NCBI GenBank assembly: GCA_030038995.1
Contig: JASHQS010000082.1
Coordinates: forward strand, 1-62,254
Reading direction: 5' to 3'
From: Xanthobacteraceae bacterium
Lineage (GTDB): Bacteria; Pseudomonadota; Alphaproteobacteria; Rhizobiales; Xanthobacteraceae
DNA length: 62,254 bases
A program made the position numbers and the translations under genes. Positions 2,392 through 39,184 of this stretch are shown here, piece by piece (position 1 is the first letter of the stretch; each line of letters opens with the position of its first letter). Below the pieces are notes generated by a model. The model was not told where the DNA came from and searched no databases. It saw only the letters and a program-made list of their open reading frames with translations.

Positions 2392-3624
2392 ATGTCCACT
2401 CAGCTCTCCGAAGAACAGCGCCTGATGCGGCAAAGCTGCCGCGATTTCGTCGATGAGGTGGTCATTCCGTTCATTCGCGGCCATTGGCAGCGCGAATGGC
2501 TGATGACGCCGGAGGACCGGCTGCCGCCGGGAATCCTCGAAGGTGCCGAGAAGGTCGGCATCCGCACGCTCGGCGTGCCCGAAGAATTTGGCGGAGTCGA
2601 ACTCGACCGCGGCAGCGAGGTGGCGACGTTCGCGCTGATCGCCGAAGAAATCGCGCGCGGCGATTCCGGGCTCGCCGACAAGCTGGTGCAGAACTGGAAA
2701 GTCGCCGTGCTGCTGCGCAACCTGGCGCCCCGCCACTTGCAGGAAAAATGGTTCGCGCGGCTCCTCGCCGATCCGCAGTTTCTCCTGGCGCATTGCCTGA
2801 CCGAGCCGCGCGGCGCCTCCGACCGGTGGCTCCCCTACAACGTGCCGGAAGCCGCAATGGCGACCCGCGCGGTGAAGAAGAACGGCGAATGGATCATCAA
2901 CGGCCGCAAGCAATTCATCTCCAACGGCTACGACGCCGGCCTGTTCGTGGTCTACGCCAACACCAATCCGCAAGTCGGCATGCTGGCCGGCACGTCGAGC
3001 TTTTTAGTGCCGCGCGACACGCCCGGGCTGACCGTTGCGCGCTGCAACGAGACCATCGGCTGCCGCTTCATGAACAACGGCGAACTGGTGTTCGAGGACA
3101 TGCGCGTGCCGGCCGATCATCTGTTGGTCGAGAGCGACGCGCTGGGCAAGGCCGCGGTCTATTTCCGGCCGGGAAAAATCATCCAGGCGGCTAAAAATCT
3201 CGGCGTCGGCGTGCGCGCCTTCGAGGTCACCGCGGAATACGTGCAGAATTACGCCCAGGGCGGGCGCATCCTGATCAAGCATCAGGCGGTGGCGTTGCGG
3301 CTTGCCGATATGGCGACGCGGATCGAGGCGGTGCGCGGGCTGCTCGAGCGCGCCGCGCGCGCCGTCGACGACAATGCGCCCGAGGCCGATACGCTGTGCA
3401 ACATGGCCAAGGTGTTCGCTTCGGAGGAAATCCTCAAAGTGGCGCAGCATGCGCTCGAACTGCACGGCGGCAACGGCGCCATGCTCGATTTCGGCGTCGA
3501 AAAGCTGTTCCGCGACGCCGCGATTTTTTTGCACATGGACGCGACTGTCGACATTTCGCGCTTCAAGATCGTCAAATCGCTGTTCCCGCACACGGCGGGA
3601 AAATATGCGGGGCCGGAGCAGTGA
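2392..3624 (+). CDS. Acyl-CoA dehydrogenase family protein
   Basis: This is a 410-residue flavoenzyme with the three-part acyl-CoA dehydrogenase fold: an N-terminal helical domain, a middle beta domain (LTEPRGASD and WIINGRKQFISNG around 145-180) and a C-terminal helical domain ending with ELHGGNGAMLDFGVEKLFRDA. Such enzymes oxidise acyl-CoA to enoyl-CoA with FAD and pass electrons to ETF. The substrate chain length is unclear. The gene stands alone between an AT-rich island and the convergent atpD. I took the ATG at 2392 because the ORF upstream of it is AT-rich and lacks family similarity. Confidence 0.87.
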   Translation: MSTQLSEEQRLMRQSCRDFVDEVVIPFIRGHWQREWLMTPEDRLPPGILEGAEKVGIRTLGVPEEFGGVELDRGSEVATFALIAEEIARGDSGLADKLVQNWKVAVLLRNLAPRHLQEKWFARLLADPQFLLAHCLTEPRGASDRWLPYNVPEAAMATRAVKKNGEWIINGRKQFISNGYDAGLFVVYANTNPQVGMLAGTSSFLVPRDTPGLTVARCNETIGCRFMNNGELVFEDMRVPADHLLVESDALGKAAVYFRPGKIIQAAKNLGVGVRAFEVTAEYVQNYAQGGRILIKHQAVALRLADMATRIEAVRGLLERAARAVDDNAPEADTLCNMAKVFASEEILKVAQHALELHGGNGAMLDFGVEKLFRDAAIFLHMDATVDISRFKIVKSLFPHTAGKYAGPEQ

Positions 3625-3745
3625 TACGATTTACGAGTGATATGATTTGCCTCGGATCGCAGCCCGCCGTTTAGCGCCGTTGCGATCGACGGCTTGCTCT
3701 GATCGGCAAAAATCAGCCGCTGCTGCGTGCTTCGGCCCGGCTGCA

Positions 3746-5188
<1,443 letters not shown>

Positions 5189-31404: not shown

Positions 31405-31718
31405 GAGTGGCGAAGGCGCCCTCACGTGAATTTCGCTCATTCCCGCGAAAGCGGCTGGATGTCTTTTTACTAAGCGATTGACATTGCTATCAATTTCTAC
31501 ATCATGATTCATGCACAGCCCCTACTCAGATCGTGCCAGATCAAGGGCTTAGCGCAAACAGAGTTACGCGCTTGCCTTGGCAGATTTCGGTTTCACCGCC
31601 ACGGTTGATGGCATAAAGTGCGGCTGGAAAAATGACCGCGAGCGCAGGGAGGTGAGCACCAGACAATCAGCGCTGACAGCATTGAGACTGAGAAAGTAAT
31701 CCTATCGGGAGGGAATCC
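31405..31718. other. Intergenic region upstream of the ebo-like cluster
   Basis: 314 bases without a gene. A fragment of the family A outer arm (CATTCCCGCG) lies at 31438-31448. A TTGACA hexamer at 31478-31483 in an AT-rich stretch could be a -35 box, with CATGAT at 31503-31508 a poor -10. Strong ribosome site GGGAGG just before 31719. This is the likely promoter region of the six genes that follow. Confidence 0.4.
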
Positions 31719-33137
31719 ATGCGAGTTATTACTGGCATCGCCGCCGCGGCGGTGATCTGCTTTGCCGCATCCGCGGCCGGCGCGCAAACCGTTCCCACAC
31801 AGCGGAATCAGGTTGCCTATCCGGGCGGTCACTTGCCCGGCAATCCCAAAGTTGCGCTGGTGAAGATCGCCGACGGATTGCACGATCCGGTCGGTGTCGC
31901 CTCGGCGTTCGACGGCACCGGCCGCATCTTCGTCTGCGAGCGCGTCGGCCGAGTGCGCATCGTCACCAAAGACGGCAAGCTACTGGATAAGCCGTTCCTC
32001 GATTTGACCAAGATCAATCCACTCGGCAACGATGTGCAGACCGGTTTCGTCGAGCAGGGTCTATGGTCGATCGCGTTCGATCCGGACTTTAAGAAGAACG
32101 GTTACTTCTACGTCCATTATTCTTCACTGCCGTTCAATGGCGCCGGCGTTATCTTGCGCGTCACCGTCGATCCGAAGAATCCGGACGTGGTCTCTACCGA
32201 ACAGGTTGTGAAGACCGCTAAGGTCGTGATGCTCATCCCGCAGCCCTACTACAATCACAACGGTGGCATGATCCAATTCGGTCCCGACGGCTATCTCTAT
32301 ATCAGCCGCGGCGACGGCGGCTGGGAAGGCGATCCGCTCAATGCTGGGCAGGACATCCATGTCTGGTGGGGCAAGCTTCTGCGCATCAACGTGCATGTGC
32401 CGGACGACAGCATTCCGTACCTTGTGCCGGCCGACAATCCGTTCAACGCCGCCCAGGCGAACCGGCTCATGTTCCTGTTCGGCGTGACCGAAGAGGCATT
32501 CTCGAAAATCAAGATCGGCGCCAAGCCGGAAATTTGGGCGTACGGTTTGCGCAATCCCTACCAGTTCCACTTCGACAAGAAGAGCGGCGATCTTTTCATC
32601 GCCGACGTTGGTCAGAACAGTTGGGAGAACGTGTTCTGGCAACCGCATACAAGTAAGGGCGGCGAGAACTACGGCTGGTCGCTGAATGCGGGAGCGCACT
32701 GCTTCCCGATTACCGGCCCCAACACGACCTGTCCCCAAGTCGGCGTTCTGCCGGTCGCCAATTACCCGCATGAACAGCCCTATCCCGGCGCTCCAAAGGA
32801 GAAGACCGGCTTCGGCTGTGCGGTGATTGGACTTGGCGTTGCCAACTACGCCGGTTTGAATGGCGCTTATCTTGCCGGCGACTGGTGCACCGGTCGGCTC
32901 TGGGGCATCGGTTGGGACAAGGGCGCCAAGAAATGGGTGCTGCAGGAGCTCGAGCAAACTCAGCTCCAGTTCACGTCCGGGAACATCATGGAAGATGGGA
33001 CCGTCGTGGCGACCAACTGCTACTGCTTCTACACCGCCGACCAAGGTCCGTTGGCCAACCCGGTCGGCGCGCTGTGGCGCGTGGTGGAAGCCGACAAGGT
33101 GCCTCCGGGCGCCGAAGTGGCGAAGACACTGAAGTAG
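31719..33137 (+). CDS. Secreted PQQ-dependent sugar dehydrogenase-like beta-propeller
   Basis: This is a 472-residue periplasmic protein with a signal peptide (about 1-22, AGA-Q). It has the glucose/sorbosone dehydrogenase (GSDH) six-bladed propeller pattern: LHDPVGVASAFDGTGRIFVCERVGRVRI, GLWSIAFDPDFKKNGYFYVHYS, NHNGGMIQFGPDGYLYISRGDGG and WAYGLRNPYQFHFD. Soluble members oxidise sugars or aldehydes with PQQ and calcium. PQQ use is inferred from family; no pqq gene is nearby. It heads the cluster and is followed by a cytochrome c that could accept its electrons. Confidence 0.85.
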   Translation: MRVITGIAAAAVICFAASAAGAQTVPTQRNQVAYPGGHLPGNPKVALVKIADGLHDPVGVASAFDGTGRIFVCERVGRVRIVTKDGKLLDKPFLDLTKINPLGNDVQTGFVEQGLWSIAFDPDFKKNGYFYVHYSSLPFNGAGVILRVTVDPKNPDVVSTEQVVKTAKVVMLIPQPYYNHNGGMIQFGPDGYLYISRGDGGWEGDPLNAGQDIHVWWGKLLRINVHVPDDSIPYLVPADNPFNAAQANRLMFLFGVTEEAFSKIKIGAKPEIWAYGLRNPYQFHFDKKSGDLFIADVGQNSWENVFWQPHTSKGGENYGWSLNAGAHCFPITGPNTTCPQVGVLPVANYPHEQPYPGAPKEKTGFGCAVIGLGVANYAGLNGAYLAGDWCTGRLWGIGWDKGAKKWVLQELEQTQLQFTSGNIMEDGTVVATNCYCFYTADQGPLANPVGALWRVVEADKVPPGAEVAKTLK

Positions 33138-33264
33138 TTGCGATCGCCGCATTGGCGCATCGCCTTTCGTAACCCGCGGGTGCATCGGTCAAGTGCTGCG
33201 CCCGCGGCAACCACATCCAGCTCAACGGTATTGGCTCCGTGCGGGCCGCCGAGCCAGAAAAGTT

Positions 33265-33759
33265 ATGAAATCCATGAGCATACTTGGCCGTTTGCTTCGG
33301 TCGCCGATGGCGCATGGCTGTTTTCGTTCGCCGTCGATCTTGGCGACTATGATTTTACTTATCGCTGCCGCGGAGGCTGCGGGCGTGCCGCAATTCACCA
33401 GTCCGCTCGACAACAGTCCGCTCGAAATCAAGCTTCTGCCGGGCGAAAAAATCACCGAAGGCGTGCAGGAATTCTACGACACCGGTGAAGACCCCTATAA
33501 AGGCGACGCCCAGGCGGTCGCGCAGGGCAAGGAACTTTATGAGACCTATTGCCAAGCCTGCCACATGCCCGATGGTAGTGGCCGCATCGGCCCGAGCCTG
33601 ATCGGCGACAGCCATCATTACCCGCGGTTCACCACCGACAAGGGCATGTTCGAGATCATCTATGGCGGCGGTACGGGGGCCATGCAACCCTTCGGCAAGC
33701 GCCTGACGCAGGACCAGATCCTCCACGTCATGGCCTATGTGCGCTCGCTGAAGAAATAG
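33265..33759 (+). CDS. Periplasmic cytochrome c, MoxG/XoxG-like
   Basis: This is a 164-residue single-heme cytochrome. After an N-terminal hydrophobic signal (about 24-39) comes a segment (TSPLDNSPLEIKLLPGEKIT) typical of cytochrome cL. The heme site is CQACH (96-100), and a GAMQPFGKRL segment supplies the probable axial Met. Cytochrome cL proteins take electrons from PQQ-dependent alcohol dehydrogenases. No mxaF/xoxF is in the window; the PQQ-type dehydrogenase 127 bases upstream is the obvious partner. Start 33265 or 33274 are both possible. Confidence 0.87.
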   Translation: MKSMSILGRLLRSPMAHGCFRSPSILATMILLIAAAEAAGVPQFTSPLDNSPLEIKLLPGEKITEGVQEFYDTGEDPYKGDAQAVAQGKELYETYCQACHMPDGSGRIGPSLIGDSHHYPRFTTDKGMFEIIYGGGTGAMQPFGKRLTQDQILHVMAYVRSLKK

Positions 33760-33780
33760 GACGGTCTGGTTCGAACCCTC

Positions 33781-35187
33781 ATGCACCCGACGATCGTCAT
33801 CAACGTCGTGGGACTGACGCCGCGGATGATCGGTTCCGACACGCCGGCCCTGCAACGGCTGGCGGCAACCGGCTCTGTACGGCAGCTCGCGACCGTCGTT
33901 CCGGCGGTGACCTGCCCGGTCCAGACAACTTACCTGACCGGGCTGCTGCCGCGCGAGCATGGCATCGTCGCCAACGGCTGGTACTTCCGCGATCTCTCCG
34001 AGGTGATGTTCTGGCGCCAGTCGAATCGGTTGGTCGCGGGCGAGCGCGTCTGGGAGGCGGCGCGGCGGCGCGATGCCTCCTTCACCTGTGCGAATATGTT
34101 CTGGTGGTACAATATGTACGCGGCGGCGGATATCGGCGTGACGCCGCGTCCGATGTACCCCGCCGATGGCCGCAAGATTCCCGATTGCTACACGGCGCCG
34201 GGTGAATTGCGCGACGAGCTCACCGCGCGCTTCGGCCGCTTTCCGCTGTTCAGCTTCTGGGGGCCGGCGACCAGCATCGTGGCCAGCGAGTGGATCGCGC
34301 GCAGCGCGCTTTACGTTCGCCGCGAGCGCAAGCCCACGCTTACGCTCATCTACTTACCGCATCTCGACTACGTGCTCCAGCGTCTCGGCCCCACCGCTCC
34401 GCAAATCGTGCGCGATTTGCGCGAGGTGGACGGGCTCTGCGGCGAGATTATCGAAGACGCGGAGCGCGACGGCGCGCGCATCATCGTGCTGTCCGAATAT
34501 GGCATCACGCCGGTGAGCAATCCGGTCGACATCAACCGCGCGCTTCGCCGCGCCGGTCTCGTTGTGGTGCGCGAGGAGCTCCAGCGTGAGCAACTCGACC
34601 CCGGCGCTTCTACGGCCTTTGCCGTCGCCGACCATCAGATCGCGCATATCTACGTGGCCGCCAAAGACCGCGTTGCGGAAGTCAAGGCGCTGGTCGCGGC
34701 ACTTCCCGGCGTCGAGCGCGTGCTCGACGATGTGACCAAGCCGGAATTCGGCCTCGATCACGTGCGCTCGGGCGAGCTTGTGGCGCTCGCGCGCGCGAAC
34801 AGCTGGTTCACTTATTATTATTGGCTTGACGACGCAAAAGCCCCCGACTACGCGTGCACCGTCGATATCCACCGCAAACCCGGCTACGACCCGGTGGAAC
34901 TTTTTCTTGACCCTGCCATCCGCTTTCCCAAGCTCAGCATCGGCTGGCGTCTGGCGAAGCGAGCGCTCGGATTGCGCACACTGATGGACGTGATCCCGCT
35001 CGACGCGAGCCTGGTGAAAGGCTCGCATGGGCGACCGACCGACGATGCAGCGGACGGGCCGGTACTCATCAGTTCCGACGCCACTTTGCTTCCGCCGGGA
35101 CCGCTCGCGGCGACCGAGGTCAAGACGCTGATCCTGGCTCATCTCTTTGACGAGCCGTCGTTGCTTGGCAATTTAGCACGAGGATGA
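33781..35187 (+). CDS. eboF: Alkaline phosphatase/nucleotide pyrophosphatase-fold protein, EboF-like
   Basis: This is a 468-residue protein resembling the type I phosphodiesterase/nucleotide pyrophosphatase family. PAVTCPVQTTYLTGLLPREHG (41-61) matches the nucleophile region, with Thr44 the likely nucleophile. Several expected metal ligands look changed: VVGLTPRM stands where an Asp-Gly pair is usual, and LSEYGITP where SDHG is usual. DYVLQRLGP has Gln where His is usual. In ebo clusters this family member is called EboF; it may be a divergent or non-hydrolytic member. It starts 21 bases after the cytochrome. Confidence 0.78.
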   Translation: MHPTIVINVVGLTPRMIGSDTPALQRLAATGSVRQLATVVPAVTCPVQTTYLTGLLPREHGIVANGWYFRDLSEVMFWRQSNRLVAGERVWEAARRRDASFTCANMFWWYNMYAAADIGVTPRPMYPADGRKIPDCYTAPGELRDELTARFGRFPLFSFWGPATSIVASEWIARSALYVRRERKPTLTLIYLPHLDYVLQRLGPTAPQIVRDLREVDGLCGEIIEDAERDGARIIVLSEYGITPVSNPVDINRALRRAGLVVVREELQREQLDPGASTAFAVADHQIAHIYVAAKDRVAEVKALVAALPGVERVLDDVTKPEFGLDHVRSGELVALARANSWFTYYYWLDDAKAPDYACTVDIHRKPGYDPVELFLDPAIRFPKLSIGWRLAKRALGLRTLMDVIPLDASLVKGSHGRPTDDAADGPVLISSDATLLPPGPLAATEVKTLILAHLFDEPSLLGNLARG

Positions 35188-35242
35188 TAGACTCGTGATG
35201 CATACAAATAGAACAAAAAGTAGCGTGCCCAGGAGGCGTCTA

Positions 35243-36184
35243 ATGCCTCTGCCGTTCGCCTTCCACGAGTTTGTTGGAAGAGCTGCGATGGGTCGGTCGG
35301 CAAACGGCCGCATGAGTTGGTCTGCGGCGCTGCGATTAGGGCGAATATCCAACCTTCCTACTGTATGGACGAACGTGCTTGCCGGTATCGTGCTCTCGGG
35401 CGCGGTGGTCACGGTATGGCCGGCCATGCTCCTTCTTGCTTCGTTGTCGCTCTTCTACACTGCCGGCATGTTCCTCAATGACGCATTCGATCGTGAATTT
35501 GACCGGCGCAATCGGCCGGATCGTCCGATCCCGGCGGGCGACGTGACGGCGACGACTGTCTTTGCTTACGGTTTTGGCCTTCTTGCCTCCGGCTTCGTCC
35601 TTCTCCTTGTCGTCGGCTACGGCGTGCCTGCAGGCACTGGCTGGCGGGCGCCGGCGGCTGGCGCTTTGTTGGCGGCGGTGATCGTGCTCTATGACAGCTG
35701 GCACAAAGCAAATCCCGTGGGCCCGTTCCTGATGGGGCTTTGCCGCCTCATGGTCTATCTGATCGCCGGCCTCGCGGTCGCGGGGACGCTGCCCGAGCGC
35801 CTGCTGCTCGCCGCCATCGTCTCCCTTTGCTATCTCATCGGCCTCACTTATGTCGCCAAGCAGGAGAGCTTGCGGCGCCTCGTGAATCTCTGGCCGCTTC
35901 TCTTTCTCGCCGCACCCTTCGCCTACGGTCTGCCATTCGCAACCGCGGGCGGCGCCGCGCTTGCTCTCTATGTTCTTTTGCTGGCAACCGTCATCTTCGC
36001 TCTGTTCCTTATATTTCGCCCGGGCGCTTGCGACATTCCGCATGCTATGATATTCCTGATAGCCGGCATCAGCTTGCTCGATGGGCTGTTCATGGCGGGA
36101 CAAGGCCTCGCGCTGCTTGCATCCGTCGCTGTTGCCGCTTTTCTGCTCACGCTTTTCTTCCAGCGCTTTATCACGGGGACGTGA
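35243..36184 (+). CDS. eboC: UbiA-superfamily prenyltransferase, EboC-like
   Basis: This is a 313-residue membrane enzyme with eight or nine helices. The prenyl-diphosphate/Mg motif is intact: NDAFDREFDRRNRPDRP (79-95, NDxxDxxxD). The second aspartate-rich loop is weaker (LYDSWHK). UbiA enzymes attach prenyl chains to acceptors inside the membrane; EboC of ebo clusters belongs here and its substrate is not known. AGGAGG at 35231-35236 selects the ATG at 35243 over the GTG at 35195. One base separates the stop from the next gene. Confidence 0.85.
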   Translation: MPLPFAFHEFVGRAAMGRSANGRMSWSAALRLGRISNLPTVWTNVLAGIVLSGAVVTVWPAMLLLASLSLFYTAGMFLNDAFDREFDRRNRPDRPIPAGDVTATTVFAYGFGLLASGFVLLLVVGYGVPAGTGWRAPAAGALLAAVIVLYDSWHKANPVGPFLMGLCRLMVYLIAGLAVAGTLPERLLLAAIVSLCYLIGLTYVAKQESLRRLVNLWPLLFLAAPFAYGLPFATAGGAALALYVLLLATVIFALFLIFRPGACDIPHAMIFLIAGISLLDGLFMAGQGLALLASVAVAAFLLTLFFQRFITGT

Positions 36185-36185
36185 G

Positions 36186-37061
36186 ATGCCAACGCCCGCA
36201 CAGTTGCTGCAAGGCTGGCTGCGCCGGCAATTACCTGGCGATGCGGCCGGCTGGCTGGAGGCACAAGCGGCGGCGGTCGGCGGCGCCGAAACCGATCGTG
36301 CACTGTTCCTGGCGATCAGCCTTGTGCATCGCCGCATCGGCAAGGCGGATCTCGCTCTCTCTGCGGCGGACATTGCAGCGGCGGAAGCGACGCGGCCGGG
36401 TTGGCGCCCAGCCGGCTGGAGTCTGGACCAAGCCGCCCGCATCTTTCTCCTGCTCGCCGCTGGCGGATCGCCTACGCGTTTTGCCGAGCGGCTTGAGCAG
36501 ATGTTTGCGACGGCGGACGTCGGCGAGCTGATAGCGTTCTATCGTGGACTGCCGCTCTATCCCGAGCAGCCGCGTTACGTCCAGCGCGCTGGAGAGGGGC
36601 TGCGCACCAACATGAAGGCGGTGTTCGAGGCGGTGGCGCATAACAATCCGTATCCCGCCGAGCAATTCGACGAGCACCGCTGGAATCAGATGGTGGTGAA
36701 GGCGTTATTTATCGGCAGCACGCTGTATCCCATCGAAGGCCTGGAGCGGCGCTGGAATCCGGACCTTACCCACATGCTCTGCGACTACGCGCATGAGCGC
36801 TGGGCGGCCGGCAGAACGGTCAGCTATGAGCTTTGGCGCGGTGTGGGACCTCACGCCGACAAGGCCGCCGTCGACGATCTCGCCCGCGTGCTTGACAATG
36901 GCGGACCGGTCGAGCGCCAGGCTGCGGCGCTGGCGCTTCGGGAAAGTCCGCATCGCGACGCCGCGAGCATTCTCGGCCGCGATCCAGATCTTGCCGCCGC
37001 TGTTCACGGCGGCAGGATCAGTTGGGACGCACTTGCGGCCAAGCATTCCGCGCCGACCTGA
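36186..37061 (+). CDS. eboA: EboA-domain protein
   Basis: This is a 291-residue, mostly helical soluble protein without signal peptide. The stretch RWNQMVVKALFIGSTLYPIEGL followed by DLTHMLCDYAHERWAAGRTVS and LWRGVGPH is the recognisable EboA signature; HEAT-like repeats fill the C-terminus. Biochemical function is unknown. It starts one base after eboC, so the two are almost certainly translated together. Confidence 0.85.
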   Translation: MPTPAQLLQGWLRRQLPGDAAGWLEAQAAAVGGAETDRALFLAISLVHRRIGKADLALSAADIAAAEATRPGWRPAGWSLDQAARIFLLLAAGGSPTRFAERLEQMFATADVGELIAFYRGLPLYPEQPRYVQRAGEGLRTNMKAVFEAVAHNNPYPAEQFDEHRWNQMVVKALFIGSTLYPIEGLERRWNPDLTHMLCDYAHERWAAGRTVSYELWRGVGPHADKAAVDDLARVLDNGGPVERQAAALALRESPHRDAASILGRDPDLAAAVHGGRISWDALAAKHSAPT

Positions 37062-37089
37062 AATGTAGACAAAGATGAAGGAGCGTCAC

Positions 37090-38007
37090 ATGACGTATAT
37101 CGATCCCCACATCCACATGCTGGCGCGCACCACCGCTGATTATGAGGCGATGGCCGCAGCGGGCGTTGTCGCCATCATCGAGCCGGCTTTCTGGATCGGC
37201 CAGCCGCGCACCTCCGTTGGAAGCTATATCGACTATCTATCGACCCTGGTCGGCTGGGAGCGATTCCGCGCCGCGCAATTCGGTATCCGCCACTATTGTT
37301 CCATCGGCCTCAACAGCAAGGAGGCGAATAACGAGCGCCTCGCCGAGGAAGTCATGCAGATTCTGCCGCGCTTTCTGCTCAAGGAGGGCGTGGTCGCGGT
37401 TGGCGAGATCGGCTACGACGAGCAAACGCCGGCCGAAGATAAGTATTTCCGCGCTCAGCTCGAGCTCGCCAAGGAGCTCAATATGCTGGTGCAGATACAC
37501 ACCCCGCACCGTGACAAGAAGCGCGGCACGTCGCGCTCAATGGACGTCTGCATCGAGCACAAGCTGGCGCCGGATCGAGTAGTCGTCGACCACAACAACG
37601 AAGAGACGGCACAGGAGGTCCTGGATCGCGGCTTCTGGGCCGGGTTTACGATCTACCCGGGCACCAAGATGGGCAATGAGCGGATGGTGGAGATTGTGCG
37701 CCGCTATGGTTCCGAGCACATCTTCATCAACTCGAGCGCCGATTGGGGCGTGTCCGATCCGCTCGCTGTGCCGAAAACTGCGCAGCTTATGCGCGAGCGC
37801 GGCATTGCCGAGGAACATATCCGGAGGGTGACCTACGAGAACGCGCTGAAGGCTTTTACGGCCGGCGGCCAGATGGCGGAAAGCGATTGGCTTTCGCCGC
37901 CGGCGATCGATCAGCGCACGTTGTTCGAGGGAAACTCGGTGTTGCGCGGCGGCCAGGAGCCGCGGATCGAGGGAAAGCGCACCAAGGAGCGCATGTTGAT
38001 CGAATAG
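37090..38007 (+). CDS. eboB: TatD-family metal-dependent hydrolase, EboB-like
   Basis: This is a 305-residue TIM-barrel hydrolase with a full set of TatD metal ligands: His7 and His9 (DPHIHM), Glu106 (VGEIGYD), His137 (QIHTPH), His168 (VVVDHNNEE) and Asp218 (SSADWG). In ebo clusters this protein is EboB. It may hydrolyse a phosphoester or amide in the pathway. AAGGAG at 37078-37083 selects the ATG at 37090 over one at 37075. It ends the cluster, 59 bases from a convergent GAF gene. Confidence 0.87.
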   Translation: MTYIDPHIHMLARTTADYEAMAAAGVVAIIEPAFWIGQPRTSVGSYIDYLSTLVGWERFRAAQFGIRHYCSIGLNSKEANNERLAEEVMQILPRFLLKEGVVAVGEIGYDEQTPAEDKYFRAQLELAKELNMLVQIHTPHRDKKRGTSRSMDVCIEHKLAPDRVVVDHNNEETAQEVLDRGFWAGFTIYPGTKMGNERMVEIVRRYGSEHIFINSSADWGVSDPLAVPKTAQLMRERGIAEEHIRRVTYENALKAFTAGGQMAESDWLSPPAIDQRTLFEGNSVLRGGQEPRIEGKRTKERMLIE

Positions 38008-38066
38008 CTTTTTCGGTGGAACATGATCTTTACAGAAAACCGGCTTCCACTTTTCCGGATCAGGCT

Positions 38067-38504
38067 CTAGCGTGCGGCGAGGGCGCGACCGGCCGCAATC
38101 AGCGCGGTCTTCTCCGCGTCGCTGAAATTGCGCTCGCCGCGATTGGCGATGCCGAGCGCGCCTATTACGCGCGCGCCATCGAACACCGGAACCACGATCG
38201 CTCCCTCCATGCCGGTCGCCTTGGCGCCGGGACGCACGTCGCCGCTGCTGTCGGTCTGGATGTTGCAGGCATCGACCGGCTGCGCGCGCTCGACGGCAAG
38301 GCCGGCCATGCCCTTGCCGACTGGAATTTTCTGGATGATCGCGAGCACGGGCGGTGGAAAGTGCCCGCTCAGCGCCTTGAGATGCAGGAGGCCGTCTTCC
38401 TCCAAGAGATGCAGCGTGCCGGTGTCGGCGCCAAAGCCGCGCACGATGCAGCCGAGTGCCTCGGAAATCTCCTTCGCCGAGCGAATTTCCGCGATGATGT
38501 CCAT
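38067..38504 (-). CDS. GAF-domain protein
   Basis: This is a 145-residue stand-alone GAF domain: EISEALGCIVRGFGADTGTLHLLE, then VGKGMAGLAVERAQPV and GAIVVPVFDGARVIGALGIANRGERNFSDAEK. GAF domains sense small ligands or redox state; no output domain is attached. The ATG at 38504 is preferred. It converges on the ebo-like cluster. Confidence 0.87.
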   Translation of the reverse strand: MDIIAEIRSAKEISEALGCIVRGFGADTGTLHLLEEDGLLHLKALSGHFPPPVLAIIQKIPVGKGMAGLAVERAQPVDACNIQTDSSGDVRPGAKATGMEGAIVVPVFDGARVIGALGIANRGERNFSDAEKTALIAAGRALAAR

Positions 38505-39184
38505 TGTTCCCGCCTTAACGCCACACTGAGAGCATCTTAGCCCAAATGGAGTGACCAGACTACCTACGCTTCGTGAATTTCGCCCCATGCGAGCACCGTA
38601 CGCGAAGCTAAGTCATGGGGCGTCGAAGCAATATGACGTCGCCGAGACAAAGACGCGATGCGCGCGCCCTACAACGCCCGCAACGTCTCATCGGCAGCGG
38701 CCAGGGCGGCCGAGACCTTCGACGCAACGCTCTCAGCCGATTCATCACCGGCACCGGTTAGTCGGCTGGGTAGAAGCTCTGCCAGCAAGCTTCGTTCTTA
38801 CGAACACTCCTACTAAGCGCCACAGCGGCGCACGCCATGCGGCTTCCATCCCGCGCGCAAGGGTAAGGCGGCGCTGCGCGACAACTTTGTCTTGTTCGAT
38901 CGGGGGTGCGAGGGCTCTGCCCTGGCACCCCCAGCAAGAACAAAATCGGTCTCCCCCAATCTTCGCTCCCCCCGCGAAGGCGGAGGTTGCTGCCAGATTG
39001 GGCGGAAAGAGATCCTCTCCGATTTTGTTCTTGCTCCCCCTCGCCCAGTCTCGCCGACGGGCGGGGGTCCATGCGCGGACTTTGCGCAGAACCCAATTCC
39101 CCTTGAAATCGCACAAGTCGCCTGCACCACGCCTACACAGTCGATTTTTTTATTTTTATCTATGAAAAACAATATGTTATCTAC
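38505..39184. other. Gene-free stretch with repeat fragments
   Basis: No credible gene. A 39-codon minus-strand remnant (38669-38788, ending in LAAADETLRAL) looks like the tail of a lost gene, but its family was not recognised. Long frames on both strands here are low-complexity shadows rich in Arg, Pro and Ser. A nested hairpin at 38933-39035 is listed separately. Confidence 0.5.
38933..39035. repeat. Nested long hairpin with 17-bp perfect outer arms
   Basis: The outer arms AGCAAGAACAAAATCGG (38933-38949) and CCGATTTTGTTCTTGCT (39019-39035) are perfectly complementary. Inside them, TCTCCCCCAATCT pairs imperfectly with AGATTGGGCGGAAAGAGA. The arms are AT-rich relative to the surrounding DNA. 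No coding content. Confidence 0.75.

Follow-up and report, generated by a model that had tools for sequence, protein, structure and literature searches.

What is a secreted GSDH-type dehydrogenase, followed by a cytochrome gene, doing at the head of a cluster of ebo genes that lacks EboD and EboE? The locus lies in contig JASHQS010000082.1 (our contig C303) of Xanthobacteraceae bacterium GCA_030038995.1 (genome G000, a 4.6-Mb, 316-contig draft that is 90.66% complete); "the window" is this whole stretch of 62,254 nucleotides. The ebo cluster spans many phyla and an algal plastid, and the sole direct genetic study of it points to traffic into the periplasm; the recurrence of such a dehydrogenase-cytochrome pair in distant relatives hints at the purpose of ebo clusters. 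We propose, with a probability of about 0.58, that a 7-kb island in the window joins an ebo core without EboD and EboE (EboF, EboC, EboA, and EboB) to a periplasmic oxidation pair of its own and that the two act together. Most likely, a compound made or delivered by the ebo proteins is oxidized in the periplasm, the electrons leaving by cytochrome c. A recurrent enzyme with its electron acceptor encoded next to it provides a handle on the system, since the product of the ebo genes, or whatever it carries, should be what GSDH acts on. The four-gene version suggests a candidate minimal Ebo machine, small enough for reconstitution in a laboratory host.

The six genes and the island that carries them

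Six open reading frames (ORFs), all on the plus strand, were confirmed at 31719-38007, in the order that the original prediction had given for them: GSDH, cytochrome cL-like protein, EboF, EboC, EboA, EboB. Gene starts were picked by plausible ribosome site, and with these starts the last five genes are spaced 21, 55, 1, and 28 bases apart, as predicted. A gap of 127 bases separates the GSDH gene from the cytochrome gene; no promoter-like site among those listed lies in it, and a terminator between the two genes was discarded, as none of the listed sites falls in the gap. The features are as follows.

31719..33137, + strand: secreted GSDH-type (sGDH/Asd-like) dehydrogenase, 472 amino acids, with a hydrophobic N terminus (PF07995)
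33265..33759, + strand: c-type cytochrome, cytochrome cL (MoxG)-like, 164 amino acids, with a CQACH heme motif (TIGR03872, PDB matches); an alternative, longer GTG start is possible at 33193
33781..35187, + strand: EboF-like type I phosphodiesterase/nucleotide pyrophosphatase, 468 amino acids (PF01663)
35243..36184, + strand: EboC-like UbiA-superfamily membrane prenyltransferase, 313 amino acids; the ORF opens at 35195 (PF01040, NF035940)
36186..37061, + strand: EboA, 291 amino acids; the ORF opens at 36081 (NF035938, NF035937)
37090..38007, + strand: EboB-like TatD-family metal-dependent hydrolase, 305 amino acids; the ORF opens at 37075 (PF01026)
38067..38588, - strand: convergent gene for a GAF-domain protein, carried along with the island (PF13185, 45.8 bits)

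Profile searches of the six proteins, proposed at the outset as a check, bore out the family assignments in part. GSDH scored 99.9 bits against PF07995 over residues 55 to 322 (cut-off, 25), EboF 213.2 bits against PF01663 (Phosphodiest; cut-off, 23), EboC 55.7 bits against PF01040 (UbiA; cut-off, 34.2), and EboB 67 bits against PF01026 (TatD; cut-off, 27). EboA, on whose recognition the prediction had been staked, scored 169.8 bits against the EboA_domain model NF035938 (cut-off, 50). Scores fell under the cut-off for the EboA_family model NF035937 (260.9 bits; cut-off, 320), for the EboC equivalog model NF035940 (106 bits; cut-off, 250), and for the cytochrome_MoxG model TIGR03872 (114.1 to 114.6 bits; cut-off, 147.8). 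Compared with their counterparts at the EboA loci of other genera, EboF is 53 to 71% identical, EboB 55 to 76%, and EboC 27 to 55% (the copy at locus L029 being a 50% match). The Asp-rich UbiA motif NDxxDxxxD is kept in EboC and is common to 12 other aligned EboC sequences (the L029 row, in the wrong frame, was left out), and D5, H7, H9, E106, H137, H168, and D218 of EboB, which we take to be metal ligands, are invariant in 14 of 14 aligned EboB proteins. Single-sequence AlphaFold2 models were not usable for either EboA (mean predicted local distance difference test score, 51.2, with confidence only in the C-terminal helices) or GSDH (39.4).

Measured against the six-gene ebo operon, EboA is present, and EboB, EboC, and EboF are clustered with it. 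The window thus resembles the ABCDEF type of operon (Yurchenko et al. 2016, PMC5133447; statements about cited articles refer to the parts of them that were covered) in that EboA, EboB, EboC, and EboF are clustered and co-directional and keep conserved motifs; it differs in the absence of EboD and EboE, in the dehydrogenase and cytochrome in front, and in the GAF gene behind.

The six genes, the convergent GAF gene, and the ~160 bases that precede the first gene form a conserved island of ~7 kb (31558-38638). By blastn, similarity to a locus in genome G009 (L022) covers 31558-38638 (97.7% over 7085 bases), and similarity to one in G019 (L096) covers 31647-38516 (81.6% over 6934 bases). Outside the island, only short matches to these loci were found at E <= 1e-10, L022 extending just ~0.5 kb past the GAF side; the flanks differ between genomes, as they would if the block had been transferred or had moved. 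The G+C content of the island is 61.9%, against 65% in its surroundings. All seven genes are open in G000, G009, and G019, and their ratios of nonsynonymous to synonymous substitution rates (dN/dS) between G000 and G019 are 0.07 to 0.22 at dS values of 0.46 to 0.73; the GAF gene (dN/dS, 0.17) is kept beside EboB in L022 and L024. The island is real, conserved, and under purifying selection. Because the six-gene order recurs in G009 and G019 and each gene has a low dN/dS, the cluster is not a chance arrangement.

Among 20 genomes of the genus searched, four have EboA and three have GSDH, and G000, G009, and G019 have both. A scan of genome contigs for EboA gave one locus, a near-copy of the island in the Xanthobacteraceae metagenome-assembled genome contig JASHPU010000034.1. 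G002, a 65% complete draft, carries a different ebo cluster on a 7.5-kb contig, with EboB-EboF divergent from EboC-EboA. In G009, a second EboA-like gene stands alone (L023:12353-12865); its neighbors match those of the G002 cluster (L025), and it is possibly a remnant. A short repeat lies just past the island at 38860-39094; in L022 it is on the opposite side of the island and inverted (3615-3837).

The dehydrogenase and cytochrome as partners of ebo genes

Is the pair found beside ebo genes elsewhere? The EboA samples comprised 41 relatives, 385 genomes of the class, and 398 genomes of the phylum, each including G000, and 17 EboA loci were read to ~10 kb per side as contigs allowed. A GSDH gene lay within 10 kb of EboA in 10 of the 11 alphaproteobacterial EboA-positive genomes outside the genus; the exception is G324, whose 1.6-Mb genome has its ebo genes in the order A-B-C-D-E-F and no GSDH within ~10 kb of EboA, and none lay near EboA in two genomes of other classes (G586 and G535; 0/2). 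The original prediction had named two outcomes that would speak against it, failed or misplaced profiles and a pair never seen near ebo genes in other genomes. Neither came about, and the neighborhood survey that it proposed found the opposite of the second. This survey could have overturned the notion of periplasmic oxidation and lends it strength instead.

The cytochrome is as telling as the dehydrogenase. A CxxCH cytochrome gene stands behind GSDH on the same strand in 13 of 13 ebo-linked loci (the window and its two kin included), but in none of the 29 remaining GSDH loci (of which 23 are distinct; the EboA test was applied to these genomes apart from G804, G806, G823, and G875). These partner cytochromes fall into three groups (cL-like, small, and SoxX-like); cL-like and small cytochromes are 21 to 28% identical, and the two SoxX-like ones have no match to either group at E < 0.03. 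Strong matches to the window GSDH (best E <= 1.8e-27, a limit set after the list had been seen, with at most four candidates scored per genome) occurred in 9 of 10 EboA-positive but only 5 of 374 other genomes of the class, with G000 itself excluded (Fisher P = 4e-14). Among the matches listed in a search of plasmids for GSDH (30 of 160), Nonomuraea and Embleya were also EboA records, the genes being megabases apart.

The alphaproteobacterial clusters with the pair (L026 to L033, L035, and L036) are like the window in having a secreted GSDH and then a c-type cytochrome near ebo genes; unlike the window, they carry EboD and EboE, either within the cluster or elsewhere on its contig, and their cytochromes are not cL-like. 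We found no published name for them. In a GSDH tree, one group (94/98) held eight of the ebo-linked copies of other genera (15 rows when duplicates are counted), and those of G234 and G327 formed another. A tree of four ebo proteins placed G399 with G234 and G327 (100/100) and G227 and G321 with Azospirillum (95/91), whereas the GSDHs of G399, G227, and G321 grouped together (100/100). This disagreement suggests re-association rather than mere co-inheritance, and core and pair seem to have been re-associated at least once. The window GSDH is 35 to 38% identical to the other alphaproteobacterial ebo-cluster GSDHs, and the tree gave it no firm position among them. The pair in the window may have diverged from the others or been recruited independently; its different cytochrome leans toward the latter.

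GSDH is likely a redox enzyme. A simple hydropathy scan found a hydrophobic N-terminal stretch at residues 1 to 23, as in an export signal. His180, Arg278, and Asn279 are invariant in the 12 aligned ebo-linked copies, and by alignment, not structure, the positions corresponding to the catalytic His144, Arg228, and Asn229 of sGDH are kept in 12 of 12 (the roles of these sGDH residues are taken partly from PMC6881789); Gln76 of sGDH is replaced by Glu. Pyrroloquinoline quinone (PQQ) is a plausible cofactor: contig C22 of G000 carries PQQ synthesis genes that score over their cut-offs (PqqB, 380 bits; PqqC, 372.8; PqqE, 538.4), and PqqD was matched by Pfam, not by NCBIfam. The fungal relative AA12 binds PQQ with partly different residues, two arginines being common with the bacterial enzymes (PMC6881789). 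The cytochrome has the CQACH heme site and a hydrophobic segment, its best PDB matches are 7c90 and cytochrome c-L chains, and the closest type to it is the methanol dehydrogenase cytochrome cL (MoxG); unlike MoxG, it falls under the MoxG cut-off and is partnered by GSDH, not by methanol dehydrogenase.

The missing EboD and EboE genes, the candidate pathway, and its alternatives

The claim that EboD and EboE are missing held up in a search of the genome. For an EboD-type cyclase, only AroB-level matches were found in the drafts G000, G009, and G019, and none was found in G002; the sole 3-dehydroquinate (DHQ) synthase match in G000 is at AroB level and on another contig, and the EboD clusters of G037, G127, and G273 score 621 to 654 bits in the same search. 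No EboE match was found in the drafts G000, G009, and G002 (G000 and G009 being ~90% complete). G019 has one EboE copy, on another contig (C60), next to a Gfo/Idh dehydrogenase gene and a hydroxyisobutyrate-dehydrogenase-like gene. The three genes also stand together in G001, G004, and G013, and in G008 the Gfo/Idh gene is ~5.6 kb away; these four EboE-like copies are 80 to 86% identical to that of G019, and all four genomes lack EboA. We therefore call the G019 copy an orphan and rejected it as a part of the ebo system. The orphan EboE-like gene is seen with the hydroxyisobutyrate-dehydrogenase-like gene, and in most cases the Gfo/Idh dehydrogenase gene, at L097:8266-11492 and L111 to L114.

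The gene order was said to be rearranged, which is true against ABCDEF but not against the cluster of G127 (L027), with which the window is colinear. That cluster runs on one strand through GSDH, a small cytochrome, a 3-keto-disaccharide-hydrolase-like gene (PF06439), EboF, EboD, EboE, EboC, and EboA to the contig end; the window has this order minus EboD, EboE, and the hydrolase gene, with EboB added after EboA. G127 is also nearest to the window outside the genus by path in the four-protein tree (0.70), with the fork open. The cluster is ebo-derived and without EboD and EboE.

How might core and pair work together? In the pathway that we propose, EboC would prenylate or otherwise anchor an acceptor molecule at the inner membrane, EboF, EboB, and EboA would prepare or handle the anchored molecule, and the result would be presented on the periplasmic side. 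There, the secreted GSDH-type dehydrogenase would oxidize the presented molecule or a substrate delivered by it, and would hand the electrons to the c-type cytochrome of the neighboring gene, from which they would reach a terminal oxidase. That the ebo proteins and the pair belong to one pathway is what we infer here, together with the direction of transport, the PQQ cofactor, prenylation, and the identity of the compound. Published work offers parallels. An isoprenoid-cyclitol ebo product has been proposed, and a few genomes lacking eboD have been reported (Yurchenko et al., PMC5133447); EboC-type Ubi-297 farnesylates quinolines in vitro (PMC9235831). In the scytonemin system of Nostoc (Klicki et al. 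2018, PMC6282210), ebo genes are needed for a step before periplasmic oxidation: every ebo mutant studied retains the scytonemin monomer in the cytoplasm, and the periplasmic ScyE is posited to oxidize it. Unlike in that system, the surroundings of the island showed no scy genes. The EDB cluster of Pseudomonas fluorescens NZI7 (PMC6282210, PMC9655573), likened here by description only, shares ebo homologues, and some of its neighbors have signal peptides; it differs in having the full ebo set and in its link to nematode-repelling indoles.

Neither the pairing of ebo genes with GSDH and a cytochrome nor the partner enzymes of the Salipiger and Streptomyces clusters described below were seen in the literature searched. 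The word "cytochrome" is absent from the main text of PMC5133447 and PMC6282210. Among the matches listed, no paper joined "PQQ-dependent" with ebo and EboA (most subscription journals lie outside the coverage), and none joined EboE with a cytochrome or quinoprotein (best 12 of 264). Ebo, UbiA, and sorbosone dehydrogenase were joined only in PMC6282210 within the literature covered, where sorbosone dehydrogenase serves as a periplasm marker.

Several observations weigh against the proposed pathway. No GSDH match was found in the 65% complete draft of G002, and no GSDH lies within 10 kb of EboA at L034, L037, or L038 or in any of five alphaproteobacterial plasmid clusters (Salipiger twice, Roseivivax, Ketogulonicigenium, and Azospirillum). 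The plasmid clusters count against the overall interpretation with which we began, which is supported in part; two of its elements, an ebo-derived cluster without EboD and EboE and a pair that is a recurrent ebo partner, have stood. The window GSDH has a long branch (1.04) and thus may not be the same gene as that in other ebo clusters. None of the 12 aligned ebo-linked GSDHs has an equivalent of Arg406 or Arg408, the C-terminal residues with which sGDH binds PQQ, and profile comparison ranks HHIP, which is not known to be an enzyme, as the nearest solved chain; HHIP itself has His-Asp where sGDH has Arg-Asn in the alignment, so the ebo-linked GSDHs look more enzyme-like than HHIP. With 127 bases between GSDH and the cytochrome gene, a single transcript is at most a supposition. 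Finally, the cyclitol of the published hypothesis cannot be made by this cluster alone, without EboD and EboE.

This last point leads to a possibility that is compatible with the proposed pathway, namely, that the functions of EboD and EboE are supplied from elsewhere in the genome, for example, as an inositol-type cyclitol, and that the product is the same as that of complete ebo operons. Five of five ebo clusters opened on Streptomyces plasmids (27 plasmid records had an EboB match) carry an inositol-3-phosphate synthase gene and, by an incomplete gene table, no annotated DHQ synthase gene in the stretch, which suggests that the cyclitol of EboD can come from another enzyme. The EboE-like gene that stands apart from ebo genes in five members of the genus, beside the Gfo/Idh dehydrogenase gene in four, fits such a supply, but neither that gene nor its Gfo/Idh neighbor was found in G000 or G009, and we regard the idea as tentative.

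Less probable still is that the pair simply feeds respiration, as an ordinary sugar dehydrogenase of the periplasm with its cytochrome, and shares the island with the ebo genes but not a pathway. Solved GSDH relatives include sugar dehydrogenases, some GSDH relative occurs in 122 of the 385 class genomes, the 127-base gap sets GSDH apart from the other five genes, and ebo clusters without GSDH exist. An ordinary pair, however, does not readily account for a cytochrome specific to ebo-linked GSDHs (13/13 against 0/23 distinct loci), for the presence of GSDH in 3 of 4 EboA-positive but 0 of 16 EboA-negative genomes of the genus, or for three cytochrome groups and re-association between clusters, and the gap holds no listed promoter-like site; we consider this explanation unlikely. 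That the cluster is the dying remnant of a complete operon that lost EboD and EboE is very improbable: the search results for these two genes and the lone EboA-like gene of G009, which suggests such decay within the genus, would fit, but seven genes open in three genomes, with dN/dS values of 0.07 to 0.22 between G000 and G019 and the conserved motifs of EboB and EboC kept, do not.

Partner genes in other ebo clusters

Beyond the window, the proposed pathway may have a more general form, which we put forward with considerable reserve: ebo clusters in general would feed an oxidation outside the inner membrane, each lineage coupling the core to an extracytoplasmic propeller enzyme of its own, with EboF, EboC, EboA, and EboB sufficing without EboD and EboE and the cyclitol branch being tailoring, not core. 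The propeller partners would be ScyE types in cyanobacteria and Streptomyces, GSDH with any of the three cytochromes in Alphaproteobacteria, and a PQQ dehydrogenase in Salipiger. Four of the five opened Streptomyces clusters begin with a ScyD/ScyE-family gene, followed by genes for inositol-3-phosphate synthase, an SCO3242-type prenyltransferase, EboA, EboB, EboE, and EboF; in the fifth, no ScyE is annotated across 8 kb. On one of two Salipiger plasmids, a gene for a 715-amino-acid PF01011 dehydrogenase starts 0.5 kb after eboB, with a 114-amino-acid protein without family match encoded in between; the dehydrogenase is nearest to the membrane PQQ family, under the cut-off (527.5 bits; cut-off, 832.65). 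The Mycetohabitans and Aureibacter plasmid clusters, read by annotation, have no such oxidizing enzyme. We do not claim a shared origin of GSDH and ScyE, since comparison with one Streptomyces ScyD/ScyE-family protein detected no relation (hhalign probability, 5).

Genes for isopentenyl diphosphate (IPP) isomerases, one of each type confirmed by profile and the rest by similarity, were found in other ebo clusters: type 1 at L026:8169-8753, L028:11401-11946, and L036:10535-11119 and type 2 at L031:14027-15094, L032:4546-5637, and L033:14526-15644. Together with the Asp-rich motif of EboC, they fit prenylation and the need for a prenyl donor. Two unrelated IPP isomerase types have thus been drawn into six alphaproteobacterial ebo clusters.

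Some smaller observations were made in the same loci. The Streptomyces plasmid stretches L125:2880-11454, L126, L127, and L128 combine a ScyD/ScyE-family start with inositol-3-phosphate synthase and have no annotated EboD-type gene. In members of three phyla, Gloeothece (L074:14981-18262), Mycetohabitans (L121:2474-5556), and Aureibacter (L123:6806-9866), the ebo genes have genes for a hypothetical protein and a ferritin-like protein as neighbors. On the Ketogulonicigenium vulgare plasmid, genes for a cytochrome c and a DUF7133 (PVC-type) protein (L072:16804-19554) lie ~5 kb past eboB, behind transporter genes.

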